The notes under the pieces: model-generated
What the model was told of the DNA's origin: nothing
The model's database searches: none
The model's input: the letters and a program-made list of their open reading frames with translations, nothing else
Made by a program: the position numbers and the translations under genes
Virus record (IMG/VR): IMGVR_UViG_3300032236_000808
Span: 1 to 21,648 of that record
Reading direction: 5' to 3' (one strand)
Source of the DNA: a virus
DNA length: 21,648 bases
Shown here: positions 442-21,648 of the stretch, piece after piece
How positions within the stretch are numbered: the stretch's first letter is position 1
Layout: every line of letters starts with the position of its first letter

Positions 442-526
442 GGGAGTATCGCATAGTGGCAATTGCGGCTGACTGTAAATCAGCTCTCTTTCGAGTTCGG
501 TGGTTCGAGTCCATCTACTCTCACCA
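442..526 (+). tRNA. tRNA-Tyr (anticodon GTA)
   Basis: The acceptor GGGAGTA (442-448) pairs with TACTCTC (516-522). The anticodon stem is GCTGA/TCAGC with loop CTGTAAA. The variable arm is long (class II), as expected for a bacterial tRNA-Tyr. The T arm has loop TTCGAGT, and ACCA is encoded (523-526). First gene of the array, just after the terminator. Confidence 0.95.
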
Positions 527-529
527 AAT

Positions 530-603
530 TCTCACTTAGCTCAGTTGGTTAGAGCGGCGCACTGTTAATGCGTAGGTCCTAAGTTCAAGTCTTAGAGTGA
601 GAG
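530..603 (+). tRNA. tRNA-Asn (anticodon GTT)
   Basis: The acceptor TCTCACT/AGTGAGA is perfect. D arm TAGCTCAGTTGGTTAGAGC is canonical. Anticodon stem GCGCA/TGCGT has loop CTGTTAA, and T stem CTAAG/CTTAG has loop TTCAAGT. Discriminator G is followed by CA only, so the last A of CCA would be added by a nucleotidyltransferase. Confidence 0.95.
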
Positions 604-612
604 CAAACAAAA

Positions 613-685
613 GCAGATGTCGTATAATGGCTCATTACTCCTTCCTTCCAAGTAGGAGACGGAGGTTCGATTCCTCTCATCTGCT
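613..685 (+). tRNA. tRNA-Gly (anticodon TCC)
   Basis: The acceptor GCAGATG/CATCTGC is perfect. The D arm TCGTATAATGGCT is the same as in bacterial glycine tRNAs. Anticodon loop CTTCCAA gives TCC; its stem CCTTC/GTAGG has one T-T mismatch. T loop TTCGATT, discriminator T. Confidence 0.93.
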
Positions 686-690
686 CAAAT

Positions 691-762
691 TGTCGGATGG
701 TGTAATTGGCAGCACAATAGATTTTGATTCTATTAGTTTTGGTTCAAATCCAGGTCCGATAA
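691..762 (+). tRNA. tRNA-Gln (anticodon TTG)
   Basis: Acceptor TGTCGGA/TCCGATA contains one G-T pair. Anticodon stem ATAGA/TCTAT has loop TTTTGAT, giving TTG. T stem TTTGG/CCAGG has loop TTCAAAT. The leading T-A acceptor pair is typical of glutamine tRNAs. Confidence 0.93.
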
Positions 763-768
763 CAAAAA

Positions 769-842
769 TGGGAATTAGCGTAGTCCGGTATCGCGCTAGC
801 TTTGGGAGCTAGAGGCCGTAGGTTCGAATCCTGCATTCCCAA
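769..842 (+). tRNA. tRNA-Pro (anticodon TGG)
   Basis: Acceptor TGGGAAT/ATTCCCA is perfect. Anticodon stem CTAGC/GCTAG has loop TTTGGGA, giving TGG. T stem GTAGG/CCTGC has loop TTCGAAT. Discriminator A is followed by CA. Confidence 0.95.
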
Positions 843-847
843 CAATT

Positions 848-916
848 GCGTGGTAGGCTATGGCAGCCAATTGGTCTCCAAAACCAAAGGAGAGGGTCCG
901 ATTCCTTCACTGCGTG
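848..916 (+). tRNA. tRNA-Trp (anticodon CCA)
   Basis: Anticodon stem TTGGT/ACCAA with loop CTCCAAA gives CCA. The acceptor pairs GCGTGGT (848-854) with ACTGCGT (909-915), but three of seven pairs are G-T wobbles. T stem GAGGG/CCTTC has loop TCCGATT instead of TTCGATT. The gene is short (69 nt) because of a small D loop. The anticodon arm is unambiguous; the rest is weaker than in its neighbours. Confidence 0.85.
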
Positions 917-921
917 CAAAT

Positions 922-994
922 AGTTTCATAGTGAAATGGATTATCACATAACACTACGAATGTTAGAGTGTAGGTTCGAATCCTACTGAAACTA
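922..994 (+). tRNA. tRNA-Arg (anticodon ACG)
   Basis: Acceptor AGTTTCA/TGAAACT and T stem GTAGG/CCTAC (loop TTCGAAT) are perfect. Anticodon stem TAACA/TGTTA has loop CTACGAA, giving ACG. In bacteria this A34 is deaminated to inosine by TadA, so it would read CGU, CGC and CGA. Discriminator A. Confidence 0.94.
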
Positions 995-1000
995 CAATAA

Positions 1001-1071
1001 GGTGAGTTGTCCGAGTGGCTAGGTGGAGGTCTGCAAAACCTTTAACATTGGTTCGAATCCAATACACACCT
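1001..1071 (+). tRNA. tRNA-Cys (anticodon GCA)
   Basis: Acceptor GGTGAGT/ACACACC has one A-A mismatch. Anticodon stem AGGT/ACCT with loop CTGCAAA gives GCA. T stem ATTGG/CCAAT has loop TTCGAAT. Discriminator T, which should be U73 in cysteine tRNAs, fits. Confidence 0.92.
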
Positions 1072-1077
1072 CAATAA

Positions 1078-1134
1078 AGGATAAAGGAGTATCGCCTAAC
1101 GTAAGAGTTGGGAAAGTGGTTCGATTCCACATAT
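1078..1134 (+). pseudogene. decayed tRNA (orphan T arm)
   Basis: A canonical T loop TTCGATT closed by GTGG/CCAC (1117-1131) is preceded by D-loop-like sequence (GAGTATCGCCTAACGTAAGA), but no anticodon arm and no 5' acceptor partner is found. Its 3' acceptor region runs directly into the 5' end of tRNA-His at 1135. It reads as a tRNA that lost its middle. Confidence 0.5.
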
Positions 1135-1206
1135 GGTCTTAGAAGCATTAAGGTGATGCGCCGGTTTGTGGAGCCGGATAAGTCGGTTCGATACCGTCCT
1201 TTGACC
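1135..1206 (+). tRNA. tRNA-His (anticodon GTG)
   Basis: Anticodon stem CCGGT/GCCGG with loop TTGTGGA gives GTG. An extra 5' G (1135) faces discriminator C (1206), the histidine-specific G-1/C73 pair. The acceptor GTCTTAG/CTTTGAC has two T-T mismatches and the T stem has one. The D arm GCAT/ATGC is the same as in tRNA-Thr at 2300, which suggests shared ancestry. Confidence 0.87.
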
Positions 1207-1212
1207 CAAATA

Positions 1213-1297
1213 GGAAAGTTGGGTGAGTGGTTGAAACCAGCAATTTACTAAATTGCCGACTGTTAAAGGTCCGTGAGTTCGAATCTCACACTTTCCG
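1213..1297 (+). tRNA. tRNA-Ser (anticodon ACT, class II)
   Basis: Acceptor GGAAAGT/ACTTTCC, T arm GTGAG/CTCAC (loop TTCGAAT) and a long variable arm are all as in serine tRNAs; discriminator G fits serine. The anticodon stem GCAAT/ATTGC carries loop TTACTAA, so the anticodon is ACT rather than the usual GCT for AGU/AGC codons. The fold is sound, so the A34 is not simply part of general decay. Confidence 0.9.
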
Positions 1298-1315
1298 CAA
1301 AAAAATGGTAAACAT

Positions 1316-1347
1316 TTTGATTCTTTTTATAGTGTGTATTATATTTA
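1316..1347 (+). promoter_or_regulatory. Bacteroidota-type promoter before the HNH gene
   Basis: TTTG (1316-1319), 20-nt spacer, TATATTTA (1340-1347). The ATG of the HNH gene is at 1362, so the leader would be roughly ten bases. This matches the five other TTTG-N19/20-TATATTTA sites of the window and supports the downstream start codon. Confidence 0.65.
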
Positions 1348-1361
1348 TATTAAACAATAAT

Positions 1362-1802
1362 ATGAGAAATGATATAACAACTAGAAAATCTGAAATTGAA
1401 AAATGGATTAGTGAAAATAGAACAAAAAATTGGATAGCTACTCAATTGGTGTGTAAAATAGATACATTAAATTCTTATCTAAAAAAATGGAATATTATAT
1501 ATGTAGGTAATCAGGGTGAAAAAGGATACAAAAAATCAAAAGTTAGAAAAACAGCAATTGAATATTTGAAATCGGATAAACATATAAGTAATCCAAGACT
1601 TAGGAAAAAATTGATAGAAGATGGTATAAAAAAAGATGAATGTGAGGATTGTGGAACTAGTGAATGGATGGGTAAAAAAATTGTATTGGAATTACATCAT
1701 ATGGATTGTAATCATTATAATAACAATTTGTCAAATCTAAAAATACTTTGTCCAAATTGTCATTCACTAATACCAAACCATCATAGAAAAACACCCGTAT
1801 AG
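1362..1802 (+). CDS. HNH endonuclease, homing type
   Basis: A 146-aa DNA endonuclease of the HNH superfamily, of the kind that spreads as a free-standing homing gene in phage genomes. The C-terminal half shows a Cys2-Cys2 zinc framework (CEDCG and CPNCH) around the catalytic LELHHMD and a conserved Asn-rich helix (NNNLSNLKILC), the HNH/beta-beta-alpha-metal fold. The N-terminal part (NDITTRKSEIEKWI, then LNSYLKK) looks like a small helix-turn-helix DNA-binding region seen in similar phage proteins. The frame is open upstream to an ATG at 1305, but that extension is a run of Ile/Phe/Leu encoded by promoter-like DNA, so ATG 1362 is chosen. The last three codons lie inside the acceptor stem of tRNA-Leu (starts 1793). 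It separates tRNA-Ser from tRNA-Leu; the likely target is the tRNA array itself (inference). Confidence 0.88.
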   Translation: MRNDITTRKSEIEKWISENRTKNWIATQLVCKIDTLNSYLKKWNIIYVGNQGEKGYKKSKVRKTAIEYLKSDKHISNPRLRKKLIEDGIKKDECEDCGTSEWMGKKIVLELHHMDCNHYNNNLSNLKILCPNCHSLIPNHHRKTPV

Positions 1803-1865
1803 CCGAATGGGATAGGCAGCAGTTTTAGAAACTGAAATTTATAGGTTCGAATCCTATTACGGGTA
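1793..1865 (+). tRNA. tRNA-Leu by anticodon (TAG), short variable loop
   Basis: Acceptor ACCCGTA/TACGGGT and T stem ATAGG/CCTAT (loop TTCGAAT) are perfect. Anticodon loop TTTAGAA gives TAG (codon CUA), with one mismatch at the outer pair of the stem GCAGT/ACTGA. Only five bases separate the anticodon stem from the T stem, whereas bacterial leucine tRNAs normally have a long variable arm. The 5' acceptor strand is shared with the end of the HNH gene. Confidence 0.85.
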
Positions 1866-1922
1866 CAAATGTACTTTTTTTCGATTTTACCAAAAGTCCA
1901 AAAATTTTTTTGAGGGTAATTT

Positions 1923-1954
1923 TTTGGTATATAGGGAAATTTATTGTATATTTA
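1923..1954 (+). promoter_or_regulatory. Bacteroidota-type promoter before structured RNA and tRNAs
   Basis: TTTG (1923-1926), exactly 20 nt, TATATTTA (1947-1954). Transcription should begin near 1960, right at the 5' end of the structured RNA at 1961, and could continue through the Glu-Thr-Asp tRNAs. Confidence 0.75.
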
Positions 1955-1960
1955 ACATAT

Positions 1961-2085
1961 AAGGTTGATTGGGAACAAAAGTAGCCCGCTAAATCGAGTT
2001 AGTGCAAATCTAATACGCTACTACCGGTAAGTAAAGCCAATCATAAAAGTAGTCGTCCACGCACCCATCTTCTACTTTCCTTTAA
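1961..2085 (+). ncRNA. structured RNA of unknown class at the promoter start
   Basis: No ORF or tRNA fits these 125 bases. Nested helices can be drawn: TGATTGG (1966-1972) with CCAATCA (2037-2043), AGTAGC with GCTACT inside it, and TTAG with CTAA closing a 7-nt loop at the centre. A second hairpin follows, AAAGTAG (2046-2052) with CTACTTT (2072-2078). The element begins where the promoter at 1923-1954 would start transcription and ends just before tRNA-Glu. It could be a leader that is trimmed away, a small RNA, or a degenerate RNA gene. Confidence 0.5.
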
Positions 2086-2086
2086 C

Positions 2087-2158
2087 GCTCGGTTCGTCTA
2101 ACGGTTAGGACGCCAGGTTTTCATCCTGGTAATACGGGTTCGATTCCCGTACCGAGTA
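2087..2158 (+). tRNA. tRNA-Glu (anticodon TTC)
   Basis: Acceptor GCTCGGT/ACCGAGT has one G-T pair. D arm TCGTCTAACGGTTAGGACGC is typical of glutamate. Anticodon stem CCAGG/CCTGG with loop TTTTCAT gives TTC. T stem ACGGG/CCCGT has loop TTCGATT. Confidence 0.95.
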
Positions 2159-2164
2159 CAAACT

Positions 2165-2298
2165 TAAAACCGGGTCGGGTTTGTCATTAAAGAGAGTACC
2201 TGCGACTATGTTATCGGACTATGTTATCGTAGCGGTAAAATTAGACAAAATGACATTAAATAACTCTCCGTTGAAGGTGGTATCGGTGACCTTCTAAA
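2165..2298 (+). ncRNA. structured RNA with predicted pseudoknot, upstream of tRNA-Thr
   Basis: This non-coding stretch between two tRNAs has crossing helices: TGTCATT (2182-2188) with AATGACA (2249-2255), and GAGAGT (2192-2197) with ACTCTC (2263-2268), the arrangement of an H-type pseudoknot. Inside lies TACC..GC with GC..GGTA (2197-2203, 2232-2237), whose loop carries two tandem 13-bp repeats. A third hairpin GAAGGT/ACCTTC (2273-2278, 2289-2294) ends six bases before tRNA-Thr. No tRNA signature and no ORF are present. The class is not recognised. Confidence 0.5.
2204..2229 (+). repeat. two tandem copies of a 13-bp repeat
   Basis: GACTATGTTATCG occurs twice head to tail with no mismatch (2204-2216 and 2217-2229), placed in the apical loop of the structured RNA at 2165-2298. 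It may be a slippage duplication or a repeated binding site. Confidence 0.95.
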
Positions 2299-2299
2299 A

Positions 2300-2371
2300 G
2301 CCTCTTAAGCATTGCAGGCGATGCGCCAGATTTGTAATCTGGATAACTCGGTTCGATTCCGGGCGGAGGCT
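2300..2371 (+). tRNA. tRNA-Thr (anticodon TGT)
   Basis: Acceptor GCCTCTT/CGGAGGC has one mismatch and one G-T pair. Anticodon stem CCAGA/TCTGG with loop TTTGTAA gives TGT. T stem CTCGG/CCGGG has loop TTCGATT. Discriminator T. Confidence 0.93.
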
Positions 2372-2377
2372 CAAAAA

Positions 2378-2452
2378 GGTCTATTAGTGAAGTAGTTATC
2401 ATATCTGCCTGTCACGCAGAAGTAAAGGGAGCGTAACCCTTATAGACCGCCA
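2378..2452 (+). tRNA. tRNA-Asp (anticodon GTC) with abnormal T loop
   Basis: Acceptor GGTCTAT/ATAGACC and anticodon stem TCTGC/GCAGA (loop CTGTCAC) are perfect; discriminator G and a full CCA are encoded. The T stem AAGGG/CCCTT is intact, but its loop is AGCGTAA instead of TTCRANY, and the D loop reads AGTAGTTA where GTCGGTTA with GG is expected. The paired changes are discussed in the findings. Confidence 0.87.
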
Positions 2453-2502
2453 AAATATATTAGACAAAGTATAGGTCAACGGTTCGACTCCGTTATCCTC
2501 CA
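2453..2502 (+). pseudogene. truncated tRNA (3' half only)
   Basis: A perfect T arm AACGG/CCGTT with loop TTCGACT (2478-2494) is followed by ATCCTCC, A and CA, and preceded by AGGTC, a normal variable loop. A 5' acceptor GGAGGAT and a D arm are missing: tRNA-Asp ends immediately upstream. This looks like a 5'-truncated tRNA. Confidence 0.55.
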
Positions 2503-2508
2503 CAATAT

Positions 2509-2599
2509 GCCGGTTTGGCGGAATTTAGACGCATCCGAACTAGTAAGGGCGATTCATCCGAAAGGGACTTCGTGTAGGTAACCAATCCTTCAACCGGCA
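2509..2599 (+). tRNA. leucine-like class II tRNA with unassignable anticodon
   Basis: The acceptor GCCGGTT (2509-2515) pairs perfectly with AACCGGC (2592-2598). The D stem GCG/CGC and the following sequence resemble leucine tRNAs, and a variable arm fits 2550-2572. The D loop (GAATTTAGA) lacks GG, and the T arm (2574-2591) has a mismatch and an 8-nt loop TAACCAAT without TTC. The anticodon region 2533-2549 forms at best two or three pairs around CTAG, so TAG (Leu) or CTA cannot be decided. It is either a diverged tRNA or a decaying one. Confidence 0.6.
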
Positions 2600-2623
2600 C
2601 CTTTTTATAAAAAGTTTAATAAA

Positions 2624-2655
2624 TTTGGTAATATAATTTATTTTTTGTATATTTA
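2624..2655 (+). promoter_or_regulatory. Bacteroidota-type promoter before two small genes
   Basis: TTTG (2624-2627), 20 nt, TATATTTA (2648-2655). The first ATG is at 2663, only eight bases after the box, so the transcript would be leaderless or nearly so. Confidence 0.75.
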
Positions 2656-2662
2656 ATGAACA

Positions 2663-2821
2663 ATGGAGATTACAAAAGATAATATTAAAAAATTAATTGG
2701 TAAAGAAGTACATGGATATGTCTTTATGCATGATAAGAAGACTGGTACTACCACTATTAAAGTAAATCCACATATAAACGAAGAAGCGGTAAAAATTAAA
2801 ATTAAAACTATAAAAAAATAA
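2663..2821 (+). CDS. small basic protein of unknown function
   Basis: A 52-aa ORF beginning MEITKDNIKKLIGKEV and ending KIKIKTIKK. It is lysine-rich and has no membrane segment or recognisable motif. It is the first gene after a strong promoter (box ends 2655), has almost no 5' leader, and stops 3 bases before the next ATG at 2825, so the two are probably co-transcribed. Position and early-type promoter suggest an early host-takeover peptide, but that is only inference. Confidence 0.6.
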   Translation: MEITKDNIKKLIGKEVHGYVFMHDKKTGTTTIKVNPHINEEAVKIKIKTIKK

Positions 2822-2824
2822 GTT

Positions 2825-3091
2825 ATGTTAGTTAGTTATTATGTAATGTGTGTTATCTATTGTTTCTATCAGTTGTACAAAAACTTAGATAAAAGATATA
2901 GTAATGACCCTACCGGTGGTTCTCCTGAAATGGATACTATAATGGTATTAGTTATGGCTTGGATATTAGCACCTGTTGATGCATCTTTGACTTGGATTAG
3001 ATGGTATAAAGAGGCAGAGCAAGCTAGAATTAATCAAACAAAATTAGATTTGAAAGAAGCATTCAGAAATGAAGAAGTTCATATCTATTAG
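2825..3091 (+). CDS. small membrane protein of unknown function
   Basis: An 88-aa protein with a hydrophobic N-terminal segment (residues 2-18, VSYYVMCVIYCFYQL) and a second one at about 38-52 (IMVLVMAWILAPVDA), followed by a charged helix rich in Glu, Lys and Gln. It probably spans the inner membrane twice. It lies directly after the 52-aa gene under the same promoter, and tRNA-Ser follows 8 bases after its stop. Two-membrane-segment early proteins of phages include superinfection and inhibition factors; no family is recognised here. Confidence 0.6.
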   Translation: MLVSYYVMCVIYCFYQLYKNLDKRYSNDPTGGSPEMDTIMVLVMAWILAPVDASLTWIRWYKEAEQARINQTKLDLKEAFRNEEVHIY

Positions 3092-3099
3092 TATATAAC

Positions 3100-3186
3100 G
3101 GAGGTTTGCTAGAGTGGTTGAATAGGTCAGTCTTGAAAACTGAATTACGGGAAACTGTAACTGGGGTTCGAATCCCTGAGCCTCCG
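3100..3186 (+). tRNA. tRNA-Ser (anticodon TGA, class II)
   Basis: Acceptor GGAGGTT/AGCCTCC, discriminator G, anticodon stem CAGT/ACTG with loop CTTGAAA (TGA), a long variable arm with ACGGGAAACTGT, and T loop TTCGAAT. All serine features are in place. Confidence 0.95.
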
Positions 3187-3205
3187 CAAATTGATATTTA
3201 TATGC

Positions 3206-10297: not shown

Positions 10298-10726
10298 ATG
10301 CAAGTACGAATTAAAAAATTAAATGAAAACGCAGTAATACCAACCTATGCAAAAGATGGAGATGCCGGTATAGATTTAGTTGCAACATCAATTAAGTTTG
10401 ATGGTACACAAATTACATACGGAACAGGATTGGCAATAGAAATACCTGAAGGATTTGTAGGATTGATATTTCCTCGCTCATCTATCCGCAAAACTGATTT
10501 ATCATTGAGTAATTCAGTAGGTGTGATTGATAGTGGTTATAGAGGTGAAATACAAGCAACTTTTAATCAAAAATCTTTATCTAAAGATGGCCAAATTTTA
10601 TATGGTGTAGGTGATAGAATTATGCAAATTATAATTATCCCATACCCACCAATTGAATTTAAAGAAGTAGATGAATTAACAAACACCGAAAGAGGTGAAG
10701 GTGGATTCGGTTCAACTGGAAAATAA
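10298..10726 (+). CDS. dut: dUTP diphosphatase
   Basis: A 142-aa trimeric-type dUTPase that hydrolyses dUTP to dUMP, keeping uracil out of DNA and feeding dTMP synthesis. All five motifs are present: I DAGIDL (22-27), II FPRSSI (58-63), III GVIDSGYRGEI (75-85, catalytic D78), IV GDRIMQIII (105-113), V RGEGGFGSTG (132-141), the C-terminal lid. Length is normal for the family. It sits in the replication operon, 2 bases behind the methyltransferase and 1 base before the next gene. Confidence 0.97.
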   Translation: MQVRIKKLNENAVIPTYAKDGDAGIDLVATSIKFDGTQITYGTGLAIEIPEGFVGLIFPRSSIRKTDLSLSNSVGVIDSGYRGEIQATFNQKSLSKDGQILYGVGDRIMQIIIIPYPPIEFKEVDELTNTERGEGGFGSTGK

Positions 10727-10727
10727 G

Positions 10728-11891
10728 ATGATATATTTACATGGTAATATAAGTTCTATTTTCTATCAAGCATTGTTTTACAATTCTTATATTAAAGATG
10801 ATATTTACAAATATTTTTATCTACATAATACAAATGAATTGGATAATGAAAAAGCAAATGCATACAATAGTATTTTAGATATTTTAAAGCAAAAATATAA
10901 TATTATAGTTGATGAAAATTATAATAATATAAATGATAGTGGTAAACATATTGTAGATGATATTAATAAAATAAATTTTAATTCCTTAAATACAGAATCT
11001 AAATATTATTTTATACAATTTAGTAATATGGAAGGATTGGGATTAATAGAAAATAAACCTATTACTAACAATCATTATATATTTGCATCAGGTAATCCAA
11101 ATACAGCATCAGATTTGGGTTTCTTATTAAGAACAAATTTTTTTAGTAGACTTCTTAGTACATCTTTTTATTCACATGATATATTTAAAACAACTAAGAA
11201 AAAATATAGATTTGATTTATCAATAAGAAATTTCATAGATAAATTTGAAAGAATTGATTTATTTAATAAACTTAAAAATATAAATCATCCATTTGTATCA
11301 ATAAAAGTAAATTCATATGTTCTAAATAAATTTAAAATAGCATATGAGTATTTACCAAATAAATCATTATTTAAAAATGAATATGATTTTATAAATAGTA
11401 TTAGTGAAAATTTGATAGAAAAAGATGAAATTAACGATACACCATTTACATTTGGAAATCATAACAATGATACAAAATTAAAAAGAACATTAGAATCGGA
11501 CATTAATATTTTATTTGAGTCAACTACAAACAAATTATATGAAAATGATAGTTTTAGAAATGGGTATGTTAGTGAAAAATTAGTTGATAATTTATTAATA
11601 GGAAAACCATTTATAAATGTATCATTAACAGCACATCATTTTTTAAAAAATAATGGATTTGATGATTATTCCGATGTTTTAAAAATAAATTACGAAGATA
11701 TATTTTCAGATATTAATACTACAAATGATAAAATTATGGTACATATCAACCAAATTTTAAATATGAATGAAGTTGAATATTCTAATTTGTTATATAGATT
11801 AAAAAGTGTAGCATTTAAAAATAGAGAAAAATGTTTGGAAAGTTTTGAAAAAAATAGTATATTAGAGGATATAATAAAAGATAAAATATAA
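10728..11891 (+). CDS. glycosyltransferase-like protein of unknown substrate
   Basis: A 387-aa protein starting at ATG 10728; an earlier in-frame GTG lies inside dUTPase and is not used. The only telling segment is NGYVSEKLVDNLLIGKPFIN (278-297) followed by a segment ending NNGFDDY: this resembles the (Y)TEK...L..GKPFI...LK..GF pattern of phage and bacterial glycosyltransferase-like proteins related to fucosyltransferase (GT10) C-termini. The rest is Asn/Ile/Lys/Phe-rich and unrecognised. Its base composition is visibly more AT-rich than that of the flanking dUTPase and clamp-loader genes, and it is unrelated to replication, so it looks like an inserted cargo gene. It might modify host surface sugars or phage DNA/proteins. 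Confidence 0.5.
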   Translation: MIYLHGNISSIFYQALFYNSYIKDDIYKYFYLHNTNELDNEKANAYNSILDILKQKYNIIVDENYNNINDSGKHIVDDINKINFNSLNTESKYYFIQFSNMEGLGLIENKPITNNHYIFASGNPNTASDLGFLLRTNFFSRLLSTSFYSHDIFKTTKKKYRFDLSIRNFIDKFERIDLFNKLKNINHPFVSIKVNSYVLNKFKIAYEYLPNKSLFKNEYDFINSISENLIEKDEINDTPFTFGNHNNDTKLKRTLESDINILFESTTNKLYENDSFRNGYVSEKLVDNLLIGKPFINVSLTAHHFLKNNGFDDYSDVLKINYEDIFSDINTTNDKIMVHINQILNMNEVEYSNLLYRLKSVAFKNREKCLESFEKNSILEDIIKDKI

Positions 11892-13893: not shown

Positions 13894-13927
13894 TAATAAT
13901 CATATGTTCTTTTATACTTATATAGGT

Positions 13928-13942: not shown

Positions 13943-14596
13943 ATGAAAGCAAAGTTATTAGAATTAAGAAAAAATTGGAGAGAACAAGTTGGATTACTAC
14001 TTGTTAAATCTGTATTAGTATTTGTAATAGCAGCATTACTATTTCAAATATCAGGGGTTATCATTCACTTTTGGGGACCTGAAGGAATGGAACAAAACAT
14101 CGTAAATCAAATTGATTGGAAAATTAATGGTACATTCAAAAATAGTCCAGGTAACATTTGGTATAATGCAGATGAACAAATTTGGGTAGATGGTGTAACT
14201 AATGAAGTTAAAATAGGTAAATTAGCTGGTAATAGAAAGTTAGAGTTTGGTGTTAAAAACATTTTAGAAGAATACTTACAAGAGAAAGGTTATAATCTAT
14301 CTAAAAGTGCACCAAATAGATTATCAGTTCAAATTATATTTTTAGATGTTCTTACAACAAAAAAGAACATATCCGTATTTCATAGTGGAGAAGAAGAAGT
14401 AGTTATTCGTTTAAGAGGTGTTCTAAAATCCGAAGGGAAAAAGGACAAAGTAGTTATAGTAGAAGAATCCTCCTCAGAAATTTCAATGAGCACATTGATA
14501 GTTGACGAAGGTGGTGGTTTTAATCAAACAAGTTTAAGTAATGCACTTAAAAAAGGTTGTGATAAACTAATCACTAAATTATCAGAGGCTAAATAA
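13943..14596 (+). CDS. membrane-anchored protein of unknown function
   Basis: A 217-aa protein with a basic start (MKAKLLELRKNWREQ), one transmembrane segment at about 17-42 (VGLLLVKSVLVFVIAALLFQISGV), and a soluble region outside. The soluble part alternates beta-strands and helices (LSVQIIFLDVLTTKK, EEEVVIRLRGVLKS), reminiscent of small envelope-associated domains, but no family is identified. It starts a new gene block with a strong Shine-Dalgarno and a 49-base intergenic gap, and its stop is 2 bases before the next ATG, so it is the head of the envelope cassette. Confidence 0.65.
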   Translation: MKAKLLELRKNWREQVGLLLVKSVLVFVIAALLFQISGVIIHFWGPEGMEQNIVNQIDWKINGTFKNSPGNIWYNADEQIWVDGVTNEVKIGKLAGNRKLEFGVKNILEEYLQEKGYNLSKSAPNRLSVQIIFLDVLTTKKNISVFHSGEEEVVIRLRGVLKSEGKKDKVVIVEESSSEISMSTLIVDEGGGFNQTSLSNALKKGCDKLITKLSEAK

Positions 14597-14598
14597 AC

Positions 14599-16254
14599 AT
14601 GAAAAAATTTCTTATGGGTTTAGGGATAGTAATTCTATCTCTATTATCATTTACATCAAATGCTCAATTAACTATTAATCAATCCGCAACTCCAACTACT
14701 GGATTAAAAGTTGGTGATACAATTTCAGTTAAATACACAATTGCAAGAGGTACAACTACACCTCGTTATTTTTGGTTAAGATACCAATACAATAACAAAG
14801 CATTGGCATATGTTTCAACTACATTCTCACAAGGAACATCTGTTCAAACATATTACACAAGTTGGACGGGTTATAAATTTACAGCAAGTACTGCAAATAG
14901 TATTACTGCAACAAGTTTATATGACCAATACAAAGCAACTCCTTGGGGATATGCAACTAACGCAGACTGGAATGCGGGGCAATTGACAGTACAAAGAACC
15001 GATGCATCAATTAATGGAGATATTGCAACTCAAAAATATGTAATTAAAGATTTGGGTGATTATACTAATATTCACAAATTAGATTTATCATATTCAATCG
15101 ATGCAACAAGTGCAAACATTGGACCTATTACAACCGATCCTGGTACATTATCTTTATCAAATGTGACGGGTAATACATCTTCATTTAAAGTCAGAGTATT
15201 ATTCCCAACTGGATACGATATCACAGCACATACAGTTGCGTTATTCCCAATTAAAACAGATGGTACAATAGATTGGACAGTAACACCAATAGCAAGTAAA
15301 GTATTTGATGCAAGTGGAGAAGCAACTTTTACATCTGGAGTTAAAGTAGGTGATAGTTTAGCAGTTTGGATATATGGTGCAAGTGGTAAAACATTTATGG
15401 ATAATATTATAACGGTATCAGATGCATATAAAGCATTCTTAGGTATTTCACAAACTGATATAACAGGTGCTGCAACATATTTTACAAGACCAACATTACA
15501 AAAAAATATAGGACAAATTACAAAAGGAAAAGGAACATTTAGTGAAAGTGATTCTTATTATTCATTTGCATATGTGATGGGTATTGCTAATGTAGGAGAT
15601 AGTGCATATATTCCATCTAGCACAAGATCTAGTTCTTACAAATGGTTTAGCGGTTTATTAAATCAAAGTTGGTTAGATGGTACACCAACATACAAAACCA
15701 AAGTAACAAATTCAACTCAAGCAATTGATATGGTTTATGCTTGGGGTGGTGATTTAGATTGGTCACATTCATCAAATCCTGATACAATTGCAAGTAGAAT
15801 TAGTAGTGGTAATTACGCAAATTCGGTAGCTAATACAACTACAATTAAATCATTTTCAGTTGGAAGTATGAGTTATACATCTGCAATAGAAAGTGCAAAA
15901 TTGGGATTAAACTCTACTATTGTTAATGGTAAAGTTGTATTAACTGGAACATTAACTAAAGAAGGTTTAGCTGGTTTAGAAGTAATCTTACAATATGATA
16001 ATACTAAATTAACTTTTGACAATATAGCATTTGATGCAGGTGCAAATGTAGTAAACTTTTCAACAAATAAAGATGGTAGATTAACATTTGGTTCAATGGA
16101 CCAGACAAAGTTGGATAGAATTAAAATAGGAACACCATATACATTAACATTTACGCCAAAAGAAACATTAGCTAATACAGCAGGTTTATTTTATACAGTT
16201 TTAGCAGATGCGGTTGATGGAGCCGGAAATAAGATTAACTTAATAGTAGAATAA
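14599..16254 (+). CDS. exported protein with C-terminal cohesin-like domain
   Basis: A 551-aa protein with a clear Sec signal peptide (MKKFLMGLGIVILSLLSFTSNA, cleavage probable before Q23). It consists mostly of beta-sandwich-like stretches rich in Ser, Thr and Asn. Residues about 435-550 (TKEGLAGLEVILQYDNTKLT, then LTFGSMD, then LFYTVLADAVDGAGNKINL) follow the cohesin-type pattern. A degenerate dockerin-like loop may lie near 308-328 (KGKGTFSESDSYYSFAYVMG). It is paralogous to the next gene in the C-terminal half. Likely destination is the periplasm or cell surface, unusual for a phage gene; a virion surface fibre exported by mistake is less likely given the signal. Confidence 0.7.
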   Translation: MKKFLMGLGIVILSLLSFTSNAQLTINQSATPTTGLKVGDTISVKYTIARGTTTPRYFWLRYQYNNKALAYVSTTFSQGTSVQTYYTSWTGYKFTASTANSITATSLYDQYKATPWGYATNADWNAGQLTVQRTDASINGDIATQKYVIKDLGDYTNIHKLDLSYSIDATSANIGPITTDPGTLSLSNVTGNTSSFKVRVLFPTGYDITAHTVALFPIKTDGTIDWTVTPIASKVFDASGEATFTSGVKVGDSLAVWIYGASGKTFMDNIITVSDAYKAFLGISQTDITGAATYFTRPTLQKNIGQITKGKGTFSESDSYYSFAYVMGIANVGDSAYIPSSTRSSSYKWFSGLLNQSWLDGTPTYKTKVTNSTQAIDMVYAWGGDLDWSHSSNPDTIASRISSGNYANSVANTTTIKSFSVGSMSYTSAIESAKLGLNSTIVNGKVVLTGTLTKEGLAGLEVILQYDNTKLTFDNIAFDAGANVVNFSTNKDGRLTFGSMDQTKLDRIKIGTPYTLTFTPKETLANTAGLFYTVLADAVDGAGNKINLIVE

Positions 16255-18149
16255 TGAAAAAATTATTCGTTACATTACTTCTAACAATATTATCATTCGT
16301 AACCTACTCCCAATCAGGAGTGGGTTATTTGAATTATACCGTCTATAACATTATAAGTAACGGAGCGGGTCAATATGCTAATAATGCAACTAACTTTGTT
16401 AATATGTTTGATGTTACAAAGGGAGCTAGTGTTTATACAAGCGGAGTAACAACAGCAGCAAAAGCTTTATATTTTGTTAATAGTTGGACACCTTCAGGAG
16501 TTCCAAATGGTGGTGCATATACCGGTATTAAAATTACTGGATATTTTGTTCCAAAAGAAAGTGGAACATATTCATTTGGTATTGATGGAGATGATGGTGT
16601 AGATTTTTCATTAGATGGTGTTGTTGTAACATCATTTTATGGACCACATGGTTTTGGTGGTTATCGTTTTGGGACAATTAATTTAGTTGCGGGAAAGACC
16701 TATGCATTTATGGCAAGATACCAAAACTGGGGTGGTGGATGGGGTTTGGATTTAGCATGGAAAAGACCTTCTCAATCACAATGGACGGTTCAATCAAATG
16801 AGGTGTATTCAACACAACCATCATCACCAACCAAAAAAGCAATTACCAATTTTAACTTTAATACAAATCTAAATGCAACAACATTTGCCGTAGGTTCATC
16901 ATTAAGTTCGGCGGGTTCAATAGATATAACAACATTATTAGATAGTGTTAAAGTTGCAAATGGTTATAAAGGTAACATCACTTCAGGACAAGTTGAGTGG
17001 AGTTATGTTAATTTTTTTAATGGAGTAACTACACTTTATATTGACATGAGACAATTTGGTAATACAATACCATCAGCAGTTAATAGTGTTTCTATATTGG
17101 ATGTTTATAGTGGACCTGTTACATTTACAACAAGTGATGGAACTTGGGCACAATATACTATTCCATCTACATTAACAAAAGTAACTGATGGAACTTCTAT
17201 TTATAACTCAAATATAAGAAATGCAGGATATAATAATTATGCATTCGCTTGTAATGTAGGGTTTACAGCAAATCAAATATACAAACCACAAACAATATCC
17301 CTTTCAACTACAAACAATTTAACTACTTTGTATAATAGTATTGTGACAGTATCCGATGTTTATTTAGCATTTCAAGAATATTCAAACCAAGGTATATTTG
17401 GTAATCAAACAGGAACTGCATTTACAAAAGGTATTCAATATCAAAATGCTGATATAGATGGTAATGGTATATTTGATGAAAATGATTGTTTCTTATTATT
17501 ACAAAATATGACAGGAGCAAAAACATTAGTTGACACATTCAATCTAAACAAAACTTTAAGAATAATACCACAATCAAAATATGATAGTATTGGTAAATCT
17601 AATTGGAATACATTTACAAATCCATTGGGTAGTTCATATACATTCGATATAAACACAGGTAAATCAACAGATACATTAAATTTAGCAGCTGCTTGGAAAG
17701 GTGATGTAAACTTATCACATTCAACTACACCAGCAACAAATAATTTAACATCAATGGCTTTAAAATCAATGAGTGTTAGTACTGAAATTAATGGAACAAT
17801 TATGACTGAAATAATTGGTGATAGTGTATATGCAACATTAACAATAGACCCATTAGGACAAGAATTAGTAGGAGCACAATTTAAATTAAATTATGATAAT
17901 AGTTTGTTAAAATTTAATAATATATCATTTAAAACAAAAAACAATCCAACTAATTTTGGAACTGATATGGGTGATTATATAAATTTTGGTTCTTTAATTA
18001 CAACGGGTGCAACTTTAGATAATACTACCGAATATAAAATTATATTTACAACTAAATCAAAATTAGATAATATATTGGGATTGATTTCAATATATCTAAC
18101 GGATGCGGTAAATAAAAGTGGAACAACATTAAAATTGAAAATACAATAA
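16254..18149 (+). CDS. exported PA14 / dockerin-like / cohesin-like protein
   Basis: A 631-aa secreted protein. Signal peptide MKKLFVTLLLTILSFVTYSQ (1-20). A PA14-type carbohydrate-binding beta-barrel lies at about 75-175: YFVPKESGTYSFGIDGDDGV and LVAGKTYAFMARYQNWGGG are diagnostic. A calcium-binding, dockerin-like loop follows: D400-x-D402-x-N404-G-x-x-D408-x-x-D411. The last 120 residues form a cohesin-like sandwich homologous to that of the upstream gene. Its ATG overlaps the stop of that gene by one base, as does the next gene, so three genes are translationally linked. It probably binds glycans or a partner outside the cell. Confidence 0.78.
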   Translation: MKKLFVTLLLTILSFVTYSQSGVGYLNYTVYNIISNGAGQYANNATNFVNMFDVTKGASVYTSGVTTAAKALYFVNSWTPSGVPNGGAYTGIKITGYFVPKESGTYSFGIDGDDGVDFSLDGVVVTSFYGPHGFGGYRFGTINLVAGKTYAFMARYQNWGGGWGLDLAWKRPSQSQWTVQSNEVYSTQPSSPTKKAITNFNFNTNLNATTFAVGSSLSSAGSIDITTLLDSVKVANGYKGNITSGQVEWSYVNFFNGVTTLYIDMRQFGNTIPSAVNSVSILDVYSGPVTFTTSDGTWAQYTIPSTLTKVTDGTSIYNSNIRNAGYNNYAFACNVGFTANQIYKPQTISLSTTNNLTTLYNSIVTVSDVYLAFQEYSNQGIFGNQTGTAFTKGIQYQNADIDGNGIFDENDCFLLLQNMTGAKTLVDTFNLNKTLRIIPQSKYDSIGKSNWNTFTNPLGSSYTFDINTGKSTDTLNLAAAWKGDVNLSHSTTPATNNLTSMALKSMSVSTEINGTIMTEIIGDSVYATLTIDPLGQELVGAQFKLNYDNSLLKFNNISFKTKNNPTNFGTDMGDYINFGSLITTGATLDNTTEYKIIFTTKSKLDNILGLISIYLTDAVNKSGTTLKLKIQ

Positions 18150-18499
18150 TGAAACATATTAAAATTATAATCCTTTGTTGTATCATTTTTATAATATCTT
18201 GTCAAAAAGTATTAGTTGTACCGGTAGAAGTAAAGGTAAACAATGTATTTGATGCACCTCAAAATAGTATTACAAATGGACAAGAAATACAATTTAATTT
18301 AACAACAAGTGGTGTATATACATTAACAATTGGTGATAGTGTAACTAACCAAGTTTTGACAAGAGAAAGATTTAATGGACAAATTGGACAAAATAAAAAG
18401 AAAATATACACTAAAGGGCTACAAAGTAAATATTTATATTTGTTATTGGAAGATGTTACAAAAAATAAAATAGGTAAAACAACAATAATAATAAACTAA
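18149..18499 (+). CDS. lipoprotein with C-terminal beta-domain
   Basis: A 116-aa protein with a lipoprotein signal: basic start MKHIK, hydrophobic run, then IISC with Cys18 as the lipidation site followed by QK. The remainder (about 40-116) is a single beta-sandwich-like domain; its pattern, YTLTIGDSVTNQVLTRERF then YLYLLLEDVTKNKIGKTTII, resembles the C-terminal tails of Bacteroidota type IX secretion substrates. It overlaps the previous stop by one base and stops 1 base before the next gene. Confidence 0.7.
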   Translation: MKHIKIIILCCIIFIISCQKVLVVPVEVKVNNVFDAPQNSITNGQEIQFNLTTSGVYTLTIGDSVTNQVLTRERFNGQIGQNKKKIYTKGLQSKYLYLLLEDVTKNKIGKTTIIIN

Positions 18500-18500
18500 A

Positions 18501-18869
18501 ATGAAAAAATTAATTTTAATAGCATTAGTAGGAATGATGTTTGTAGGATGTAGAAAATCAGATACAATAGCAATGGTTAATACAATACCATCTGAATTGG
18601 CAATCAATAGTGTAAGTGGTATTAAATTGGAAACACCATTTGTAACATCACAAGTATCTATGAATGTTAAAAGTGAAGTAGCACAAACGGTAACAATAAA
18701 AATATTTGATATATCTAATAGAGTAGTATCTAAATCAACATCCGATGTAAAAGTTGGTGATAACATTTTAAAAGTATATACAAACGCATTACCATCATCA
18801 GCATATAGAATTGCATTATTTGATGATAAAGGAAATCAATTAGGAATTACGGATTTTAATAAAATATAA
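18501..18869 (+). CDS. lipoprotein with type IX tail-like domain
   Basis: A 122-aa lipoprotein: MKKLILIALVGMMFVGC, lipidated Cys17, then RK. The C-terminal 65 residues (VTIKIFDISNRVVSKSTSDV, then ALPSSAYRIALFDDKGN) strongly recall the type A sorting domain of the type IX system, where the pattern is xVxIYDxxGRxV...G.....LxSGxYxxxL. The tail is not extended by an enzyme, so it would be an anchored, bare domain; it might act as a decoy or receptor modifier (inference). It is homologous in layout to the upstream lipoprotein. Confidence 0.72.
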   Translation: MKKLILIALVGMMFVGCRKSDTIAMVNTIPSELAINSVSGIKLETPFVTSQVSMNVKSEVAQTVTIKIFDISNRVVSKSTSDVKVGDNILKVYTNALPSSAYRIALFDDKGNQLGITDFNKI

Positions 18870-18873
18870 TATT

Positions 18874-19230
18874 ATGGCAAAAGCAAAAAAAGAGCAATCA
18901 CCAGAAGAAGTGATGGCTAAAAATGAAAAACACAATGACGGTACAATGAGTGGTTTAAAGAAAACTATCATTGGTACGGTTGGTACATTGGTAACCGCAG
19001 GTGGTGCATTTTTAATGACTTACTTACAAAAACCAAAAGAGGGAGAAAACAAACAACAACCTCAAAGTATTAACATCAATATACCACAGCAACAACAAGC
19101 AGCTGGTGGTAAGACTGTAATAATCAAAGAGAAAGCAGCTAATGGTGGAGCAACCGCTAAACCAGCAGAACAACCAAAACCTAAAAAGAAAGAAGGTGAT
19201 GAGTTCAAAGAAAAACCTGCTCAATGGTAA
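18874..19230 (+). CDS. small membrane protein with flexible Q/K/P-rich tail
   Basis: A 118-aa protein: charged N-terminus (about 1-28), one transmembrane segment (about 29-50, IIGTVGTLVTAGGAFLMTYL), and a disordered tail rich in Gln, Lys, Pro and Ala. It starts 4 bases after the second lipoprotein gene. The next ORF overlaps its end by 7 bases. Position before a holin-like gene suggests a lysis role (inner-membrane spanin or accessory), but no motif proves it. Confidence 0.6.
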   Translation: MAKAKKEQSPEEVMAKNEKHNDGTMSGLKKTIIGTVGTLVTAGGAFLMTYLQKPKEGENKQQPQSININIPQQQQAAGGKTVIIKEKAANGGATAKPAEQPKPKKKEGDEFKEKPAQW

Positions 19231-19329: not shown

Positions 19330-19599
19330 ATGACTTTTAAGCAATGGATAATAGACCTTTTCAGAGATGAAAGAGGTTCTATTTCAGTAAAACCAGTTAT
19401 CGCATTTTTTGGTGCATTATTTTTATGTATCACTATGATTGCGAATAGCTATTCTGCTAAAGATATCGCTCCATCTGATAAGTTAGTTGATGCTGTAATG
19501 GTTATAACTGCAATCGGTATGGGTGCGGATAGTTTAGACAAGTTCAGTAAGAAGGCACCAGCAGATGAGCCGGCAGCTAAAGAAGAAGAATTAGGTTAA
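19330..19599 (+). CDS. probable holin
   Basis: An 89-aa protein with a short charged N-terminus (MTFKQWIIDLFRDERGS), a transmembrane segment at about 22-41 (VIAFFGALFLCITMIANSYS), a second hydrophobic helix at about 52-66 (KLVDAVMVITAIGMG) and a charged tail ending EEELG. Two segments with a tail of charges is a holin-type layout; holins pierce the inner membrane at lysis. It has its own strong Shine-Dalgarno site and the intrinsic terminator follows. No endolysin gene is visible in this window, so the role is inferred. Confidence 0.6.
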   Translation: MTFKQWIIDLFRDERGSISVKPVIAFFGALFLCITMIANSYSAKDIAPSDKLVDAVMVITAIGMGADSLDKFSKKAPADEPAAKEEELG

Positions 19600-19614: not shown

Positions 19615-19644
19615 AAAAACCCTCACAATTAGTGGGGGTTTTTT
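19615..19644 (+). terminator. intrinsic terminator after the envelope/lysis block
   Basis: AAAAACCCTCAC (19615-19626) pairs with GTGGGGGTTTTT (19632-19643) with a 5-nt loop and a T run. It separates the 13943-19599 block from the glycosyltransferase gene. Confidence 0.9.
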
Positions 19645-21336: not shown

Positions 21337-21648
21337 ATGAAAAAATTATTTATATTATTAAGCGTATTTTTAGTAAGTCTTGTTGCAAATAGTCAGACAA
21401 TAGGTTCTACAAAGACAGAAAACTTTAAAGCTGATTTTGAAAAGAAAAAGGATATCTCTCAATATATGGATTATGATGGACCTAAAAAGAATATCCAATT
21501 ATTGAAGTGTGGTATTGGTGATGAAGTATATGAAATGTACCCTGAATTAAAAGAAAAAAGAGTTGGATTGGGTGTTGCAAATATCGTATTAGAATATTTG
21601 GACAATTTAAATAGATTTGAATTTACCGAAGATAAGACTGAAATTAAG
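21337..21648 (+). CDS. exported protein, N-terminal part (cut by window end)
   Basis: A signal peptide MKKLFILLSVFLVSLVANSQ (1-20, cleavage near 18-20) is followed by 84 residues and the frame is still open at the window end. The mature start (SQYMDYDGPKKNIQLLKCGI and RVGLGVANIVLEYLDNLNRF) has the look of CsgG-like outer-membrane proteins, a weak resemblance only. ATG 21337 is used; ATG 21333 is in another frame. It follows the 85-aa gene by 5 bases. Confidence 0.7.
   Translation, partial: MKKLFILLSVFLVSLVANSQTIGSTKTENFKADFEKKKDISQYMDYDGPKKNIQLLKCGIGDEVYEMYPELKEKRVGLGVANIVLEYLDNLNRFEFTEDKTEIK

Follow-up and report, generated by a model that had tools for sequence, protein, structure and literature searches.

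The window analyzed here, the whole 21,648-base fragment of virus record IMGVR_UViG_3300032236_000808, contains a compact cassette of genes for exported proteins at positions 13943–18869. Five open reading frames (ORFs), w16 to w20, form one packed run with intergenic gaps of 2, -1, -1 and 1 bases, and code for one protein with a membrane anchor, a pair of Sec-exported paralogues and a pair of lipoprotein paralogues (Table 1). The original prediction, made from the letters of the window, had described this arrangement, and it holds, with the export signals kept throughout the protein families. Two small membrane proteins follow w20, and a terminator-like hairpin closes the run. The window also carries T4-type replication genes, including a DNA polymerase whose relatives belong to T4-like phages, together with clamp loader and GroES genes.

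Table 1. Positions of the cassette genes, their domains and the adjoining features in the window.
Feature	Position	Strand	Remarks
TACTTAT, one mismatch from TATTTAT	13915..13921	+	28 bases upstream of w16
w16, 217 residues; N-terminal membrane segment and exported domain	13943..14596	+	putatively related to CsgG-superfamily/YajG-type lipoproteins
w17, 551 residues, Sec-exported	14599..16254	+	cohesin-like domain at the N-terminus, beta domain in the middle, then a degenerate dockerin-like region and a cohesin at the C-terminus
w17 C-terminal cohesin-like domain, residues 431-551	15889..16251	+	family Pfam Cohesin matches; aligns with w18 cohesin
w18, 631 residues, Sec-exported	16254..18149	+	PA14 head, then beta domain, dockerin-like segment and cohesin
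w18 PA14 lectin-type head, residues 66-180	16449..16793	+	DD motif in YSFGIDGDDGVDF, residues 106-118; Pfam, Foldseek
w18 dockerin-like segment, residues 364-420	17343..17513	+	calcium loop NADIDGNGIFDEND at 17445-17486
w18 C-terminal cohesin, residues 511-631	17784..18146	+	model confidence (pLDDT) ~71-91; Foldseek
w19, lipoprotein with one small Ig-like domain	18149..18499	+	conserved lipobox; w20 paralogue
w20, lipoprotein with one small Ig-like domain	18501..18869	+	weak type IX sorting tail/DUF3244 likeness
w21, small membrane protein	18874..19230	+	constant neighbor; also immuto gp016
w22, small membrane protein	19330..19599	+	holin-like in size only
Terminator-like hairpin	19615..19643	+	ends gene run; TATTTAT directly after, at 19644
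w26, start of exported CsgG-related protein	21337..21648	+	cut by window end

Export signals are present in both pairs of paralogues. The N-termini of w17 and w18 are signal peptides ending ...NAQ and ...YSQ, and w19 and w20 carry the lipoboxes ...IISC-QK and ...FVGC-RK. By a simple and crude rule of our own making, applied identically to every ORF class, a signal peptide with Q at +1 occurs in 128 of 147 w17/w18-type proteins, several of those without it being fragments, and a lipobox in 131 of 144 w19/w20-type proteins. Two further families discussed below, w26 and X495, carry the signal peptide with Q at +1 in 97/105 and 107/111 members. An export signal is therefore found in ~90% of cassette-family members versus 87 of 1216 other clustered ORFs (7%), and the earlier proposal of an exported cassette acting on the envelope is strengthened by this conservation.

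The two large proteins are built from recognizable parts. The head of w18 is a PA14 domain (Pfam PF07691, E 6.9e-13, 49.1 bits, cut-off 24) whose predicted structure resembles sugar-binding adhesins in Foldseek searches, namely Marinomonas PA14, Epa and Flo (6x7j, 4d3w, 4lhn), and the DD calcium motif is present in 8 of 8 PA14-type rows covering that site. The modeled head thus has both the fold and the DD motif of a carbohydrate-binding PA14 lectin. The w18 model as a whole has a mean predicted local distance difference test score (pLDDT) of 67.9 and a predicted template-modeling score (pTM) of 0.37. Its C-terminal part resembles the solved cohesins 2jh2, 4ums and 5nrm (Foldseek, TMt 0.60–0.71). 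Taken alone, w17 and w18 of the window lie below the Pfam Cohesin threshold; the profile matches 10 of 23 w18-family members (best 7.3e-6) and 9 of 24 w17-family members (best 3.6e-6), in the w17 family at the C-terminal domain and, in one relative, at the N-terminal domain too. The family profile matches and the resemblance of the w18 model to cohesins, whose fold is a nine-strand jelly roll, both point to a C-terminal cohesin. Preceding it in w18 is a dockerin-like segment, with Dockerin_1 matches in 13 of 23 relatives (best 5.4e-4, mostly under the cut-off); the loop residues D400, E409 and D411 are invariant in the 23 relatives, and the other calcium loop is degenerate. The two proteins are paralogous over ~260 C-terminal residues (hhalign 99.4%). 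The PA14 domain, the paralogy, the cohesin-like C-termini and the dockerin-like calcium loop had all been proposed beforehand. The first three are borne out, the cohesins in part by the structure search that had been suggested as a check; the loop is conserved, in a segment modeled at low confidence that is a putative type I dockerin. A search of PDB sequences with profiles of w16, w17, w20 and w26 returned nothing meaningful.

The head is the variable part of w18. A C-type lectin replaces PA14 in 14 of the 23 w18 relatives, and two relatives additionally carry an LCCL domain; in one such counterpart (L015:12868-13038) LCCL (E 2e-12) lies beside the C-type lectin, which is unusual in a phage. 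Between PA14-type and lectin-type proteins, identity is 24% for the head, 65% for the dockerin and 54% for the cohesin. Because the head is so much less conserved than the dockerin, these alignments indicate that heads, either PA14 or C-type lectin, are swapped on a conserved chassis. A diversity-generating retroelement behind the lectin heads was considered and rejected, as no reverse transcriptase is present in the ten large genomes examined.

The lipoproteins w19 and w20 are paralogous to each other (hhalign 99.3%). The type IX tail profile matches 14 of 18 family members (best 0.0024), and w20 itself scores 17.1 bits against a cut-off of 27; w20 is equally like DUF3244 and FlgD Ig-like domains. 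Of the claim that the lipoproteins end in type IX-like sorting tails, a weak resemblance stands, whereas a true tail is found in the cultured Flavobacterium phage immuto only.

Searches with w17 and w18 identify 30 viral loci on contigs of up to 317 kb, and w26 has relatives in at least 504 viral contigs, usually close to a beta-barrel-like protein; 80 of these contigs were fetched. These loci come from related viruses and are not independent samples. In most of the 30 loci that hold the full stretch, the order w16-w17-w18-w19-w20-w21 is repeated, and in the fetched loci it continues through small membrane proteins to w26 and X495; some loci have one large protein instead of two. The cassette is present in all ten large relatives examined (genomes of 160–336 kb), which were picked for holding it, so this unanimity says nothing of prevalence. 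All 20 cohesin matches in the ten genomes fall inside the cassette, and the distance from cassette to capsid gene is ~21–144 kb in contig coordinates, which extends to these relatives the earlier observation that no morphogenesis gene lies nearby. Phage immuto follows the same cassette logic with diverged proteins. Its gp013 is a C-type lectin protein (Pfam, 57.3 bits), gp014 is cohesin-like, and gp015 combines a cohesin (36.7 bits) with a genuine type IX sorting tail (34.6 bits), both over cut-off; gp016 is w21-like, gp017 w26-like (51%), gp018 barrel-like and gp019 w16-like. We infer from the host of immuto and from the Bacteroidota-style signals that the hosts of the uncultured phages are Bacteroidota-type. 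In the phage collection, w17 has no match and w18 has PA14-type matches only, in two records. One module protein is absent from the window: a membrane protein (L006:3447-4031) with calcium-type DxDGDG repeats and a CxxC tail that may bind zinc; its counterpart in a second locus (L098:3381-3977) keeps the CxxC tail.

The module is larger than the five genes and includes a CsgG-related gene and beta-barrel-like partners. The CsgG-related protein, w26, is truncated in the window and ~87% identical to the protein at L003 14409-15128, which stands for it in modeling. A direct CsgG profile matches none of seven phage records at E 10. The sole relative in the cellular genome collection, from an Ignavibacteriales metagenome-assembled genome (MAG; L114), is 36% identical to the query; it is CsgG by Pfam (28.6 bits versus a cut-off of 20.8) and aligns with the w26 family at hhalign 99.9%. 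The L003 model (mean pLDDT 72.7) has CsgG or CsgG-CsgF complexes as its top 22 PDB matches in Foldseek (best E 8.8e-8, TM-scores 0.37–0.50), and the w26 family is accordingly predicted to have the CsgG fold. Cellular homologues of the family occur in 3 of 396 genomes of the MAG's phylum, the Ignavibacteriales MAG included; the w17 family is absent from that MAG. The gene beside its CsgG codes for a CsgG-paralogue that weakly matches the w16 family (E 4e-4; hhalign only 29%), and w16 itself matches Pfam Lipoprotein_16 under the cut-off (E 2.3e-4). On this weak support, w16 was rejected as a certain CsgG relative. In many loci its N-terminal segment is a separate small gene just 5' of the CsgG-like gene. 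Besides the two adjoining CsgG-type genes, the MAG locus (L114:10001-17437) codes for a transglutaminase-like protein and, two genes past the w16-like paralogue, for a CHASE2 adenylate cyclase; pelagiphage curli clusters carry a cyclase too (PMC9599517). The second partner, X495 (L003:16010-17497 and relatives), has a signal peptide and a long low-complexity linker of Ala/Ser and Lys/Glu, and its C-terminal part reads by eye alone as an outer-membrane beta-barrel; its weak match in PHROGs is to a head scaffolding protein (E 4.9e-4). Further exported proteins near w26, the c9 and c10 families, are also barrel-like by eye.

The timing of cassette expression is suggested by an upstream motif. Among the 7-mers in upstream gaps, TATTTAT ranks first. 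It is directional, occurring 133 times in tandem gaps where its complement occurs 22 times, and lies mostly 10–35 bases ahead of gene starts. An exact copy is found within 60 bases upstream of w16 in 43 of 70 loci, and in 24 of 40 after similar upstream sequences are removed, versus 2.6 expected from shuffles; a copy also precedes immuto gp013. The motif stands ahead of the endolysin in 17 of 24 cases and at 42 of 161 starts in structural regions, including those of terminase, portal and scaffold genes, which are presumed from sequence appearance and position and adjoin a profile-identified capsid gene. It is found upstream of none of 135 w17/w18 genes, none of 75 copies of the downstream membrane gene and none of 54 replication-region starts, the last a small set from few related loci. 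TATTTAT is thus a candidate late promoter element, and because the cassette shares it with the endolysin and structural operons, and the replication genes tested lack it upstream, late expression of the cassette is likely. The motif differs from the T4 TATAAATA, being the reverse complement of its core. No convincing site for a Bacteroidota-type promoter consensus is found ahead of the cassette.

As read from sequence, the cassette combines Sec and lipoprotein signals with large proteins that join a carbohydrate-binding-type head, a dockerin-like segment and a cohesin, and it is kept together with CsgG-related and barrel-like proteins. Our preferred reading, to which we give a probability of roughly 0.45, is that it may be an operon that the phage expresses late and whose products assemble outside the cytoplasm, at the outer membrane of the host. 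The host would export the cassette proteins late in infection. The two lipoproteins, with the CsgG-like and beta-barrel proteins, would fix the large proteins at the outer membrane, and w17 and w18 copies would be linked through cohesin-dockerin contacts. The exchangeable heads (PA14 or C-type lectin), putatively facing outward, would bind glycans. Adhesion at or just before lysis appears the likeliest use: either the infected cell would be stuck to its neighbors, or the dying cell and its fragments would have their receptor glycans covered, which would keep progeny from being wasted on debris, and we do not rank the two. A fuller picture is more doubtful, namely that T4-like phages build a late surface organelle with a CsgG-derived and beta-barrel base and cohesin/dockerin-linked lectin chains with exchangeable heads, which captures fresh hosts or shields progeny from debris at lysis.

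Several observations weigh against such an assembly. First, the w18 dockerin stretch, helices included, is modeled at low confidence, the w17 dockerin-like loop is degenerate, and cohesin-dockerin pairing within the cassette is putative. Second, profile searches find no type IX tail on w17 or w18, and the acidic surface-export signal known for lipoproteins is not obvious on w19 and w20, although no dedicated test for it was run; for these two reasons the cassette proteins may stay in the periplasm. Third, no CsgA, CsgB, CsgF or curlin match is found among the genes searched, and the CsgG relative is a putative pore. Fourth, w16 of the window itself has only the one-mismatch TACTTAT (13915).

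Early superinfection exclusion, the leading reading of the original prediction, loses that place. Exported proteins would here mask or jam the infected cell's receptor so that later phages cannot use it, as the T5 lipoprotein Llp does with FhuA, acting from the periplasm (PMC9586334), and variable lectin heads would suit a surface arms race, an idea also put forward for the variable type IX cargo of Cryophage (PMC7468147). However, exclusion proteins tend to be expressed early (PMC9586334), a set of five to ten proteins is large for such a task, and the motif upstream of the cassette recurs ahead of endolysin and structural genes but not of replication genes. We prefer a late glycan-binding assembly because that motif suggests late expression, and regard exclusion as unlikely. 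Somewhat less probable is that the exported, lipo-, barrel-like and small membrane proteins are lysis machinery that opens or destabilizes the outer membrane in place of spanins. An endolysin (phrog_181, E 4.6e-73) adjoins the first cassette gene in many loci, with small membrane proteins after the cassette, but in other loci it lies elsewhere or outside the stretch examined. Holin and spanin profiles match poorly (a diverged w22 relative reaches only E 0.095 against the phrog_126 holin/anti-holin), and no role in lysis is known for lectin, dockerin or cohesin parts.

A channel for import or export across the outer membrane, formed by the CsgG-related protein and its partners with the lectin proteins as gate or cargo, is less probable again. 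It would fit the CsgG-like fold of the w26 family model and the uptake proposed for pelagiphage CsgG (PMC7029224, PMC9599517), yet it leaves the swappable glycan-binding heads unexplained, the phage CsgG relative has no lipid anchor, and the membrane insertion of its pore-forming strands is only putative. That the products are virion proteins such as adsorption fibers or decorations, with misleading signal-like N-termini, is the least likely reading and very improbable: phage tail proteins often contain PA14 and C-type lectin domains, tail proteins are among the BFVD matches and the motif is of late type, but the cassette lies far from the capsid gene in the ten genomes, cleavable-type signals and lipoboxes are kept in ~90% of members, and the partners are CsgG-like and barrel-like.

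Two other regions of the window were noted. The tRNA cluster (442-3187) comprises 15 genes with an HNH-like ORF (1227-1802) among them. A 398-residue ORF (10695-11891), in a stretch of ~20% G+C amid the replication genes, has no Pfam or PHROG match and is 32–36% identical among relatives that are otherwise 90% identical; it appears to be a fast-changing or replaced gene.

The cassette represents a conserved and widespread module without a described function, and a literature search, with subscription papers largely outside it, returned no cohesin-dockerin module from a phage. The cassette suggests a late remodeling of the outer cell face by large lytic phages, which the literature found argues for pelagiphage curli genes only. 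Since both immuto and the strain it infects, Flavobacterium sp. LMO8, are cultured, the idea is directly testable.

Among known systems, the curli-type (type VIII) secretion genes of pelagiphages and of methylophage Melnitz (PMC7029224, PMC9599517, PMC9004378) likewise belong to large T4-like phages and form a conserved cluster for exported proteins that includes a member of the CsgG family, and aggregation or progeny release has been proposed for them as well. Unlike these, the cassette has a far diverged CsgG relative with no direct Pfam match and no lipobox, no identified curlin repeat or CsgF, and lectin, dockerin, cohesin and barrel-like proteins as partners. The variable type IX cargo of Cryophage, one of them a PA14 protein (PMC7468147), resembles it as variable phage proteins for the Bacteroidota cell surface, PA14 included. 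Each Cryophage cargo protein bears its own sorting tail, whereas in the window a weak tail-like domain sits on separate lipoproteins. Identity as type IX cargo was rejected with w17 and w18 lacking a tail and w20 under the cut-off; immuto gp015, which joins a cohesin to a true tail, is the only cassette protein to qualify and is intermediate between the Cryophage cargo and the window cassette.

The remaining comparisons concern single parts. With cellulosome modules (PF00963, PF00404) the cassette has in common the cohesin fold and a dockerin-like calcium-loop signature, but it has no catalytic domains, and cohesin and dockerin occur together in single small proteins, an arrangement suggestive of chains and not of a scaffold carrying docked enzymes, the binding being putative. 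T5 Llp is also a small phage lipoprotein at the outer membrane, but it is a single early gene and not a multi-gene, probably late module with lectins (PMC9586334). The PA14 adhesin domains of Marinomonas MpAFP, Candida Epa and yeast Flo have the fold and DD motif in common with the w18 head, a putative sugar binder that differs in being exchangeable with a C-type lectin. By the criteria applied, the cassette belongs neither to the curli family, because it has no lipidated CsgG and no identified subunits, nor to type IX cargo, because its tail is under the cut-off; judged from its sequence features, it would work like an adhesive surface system.

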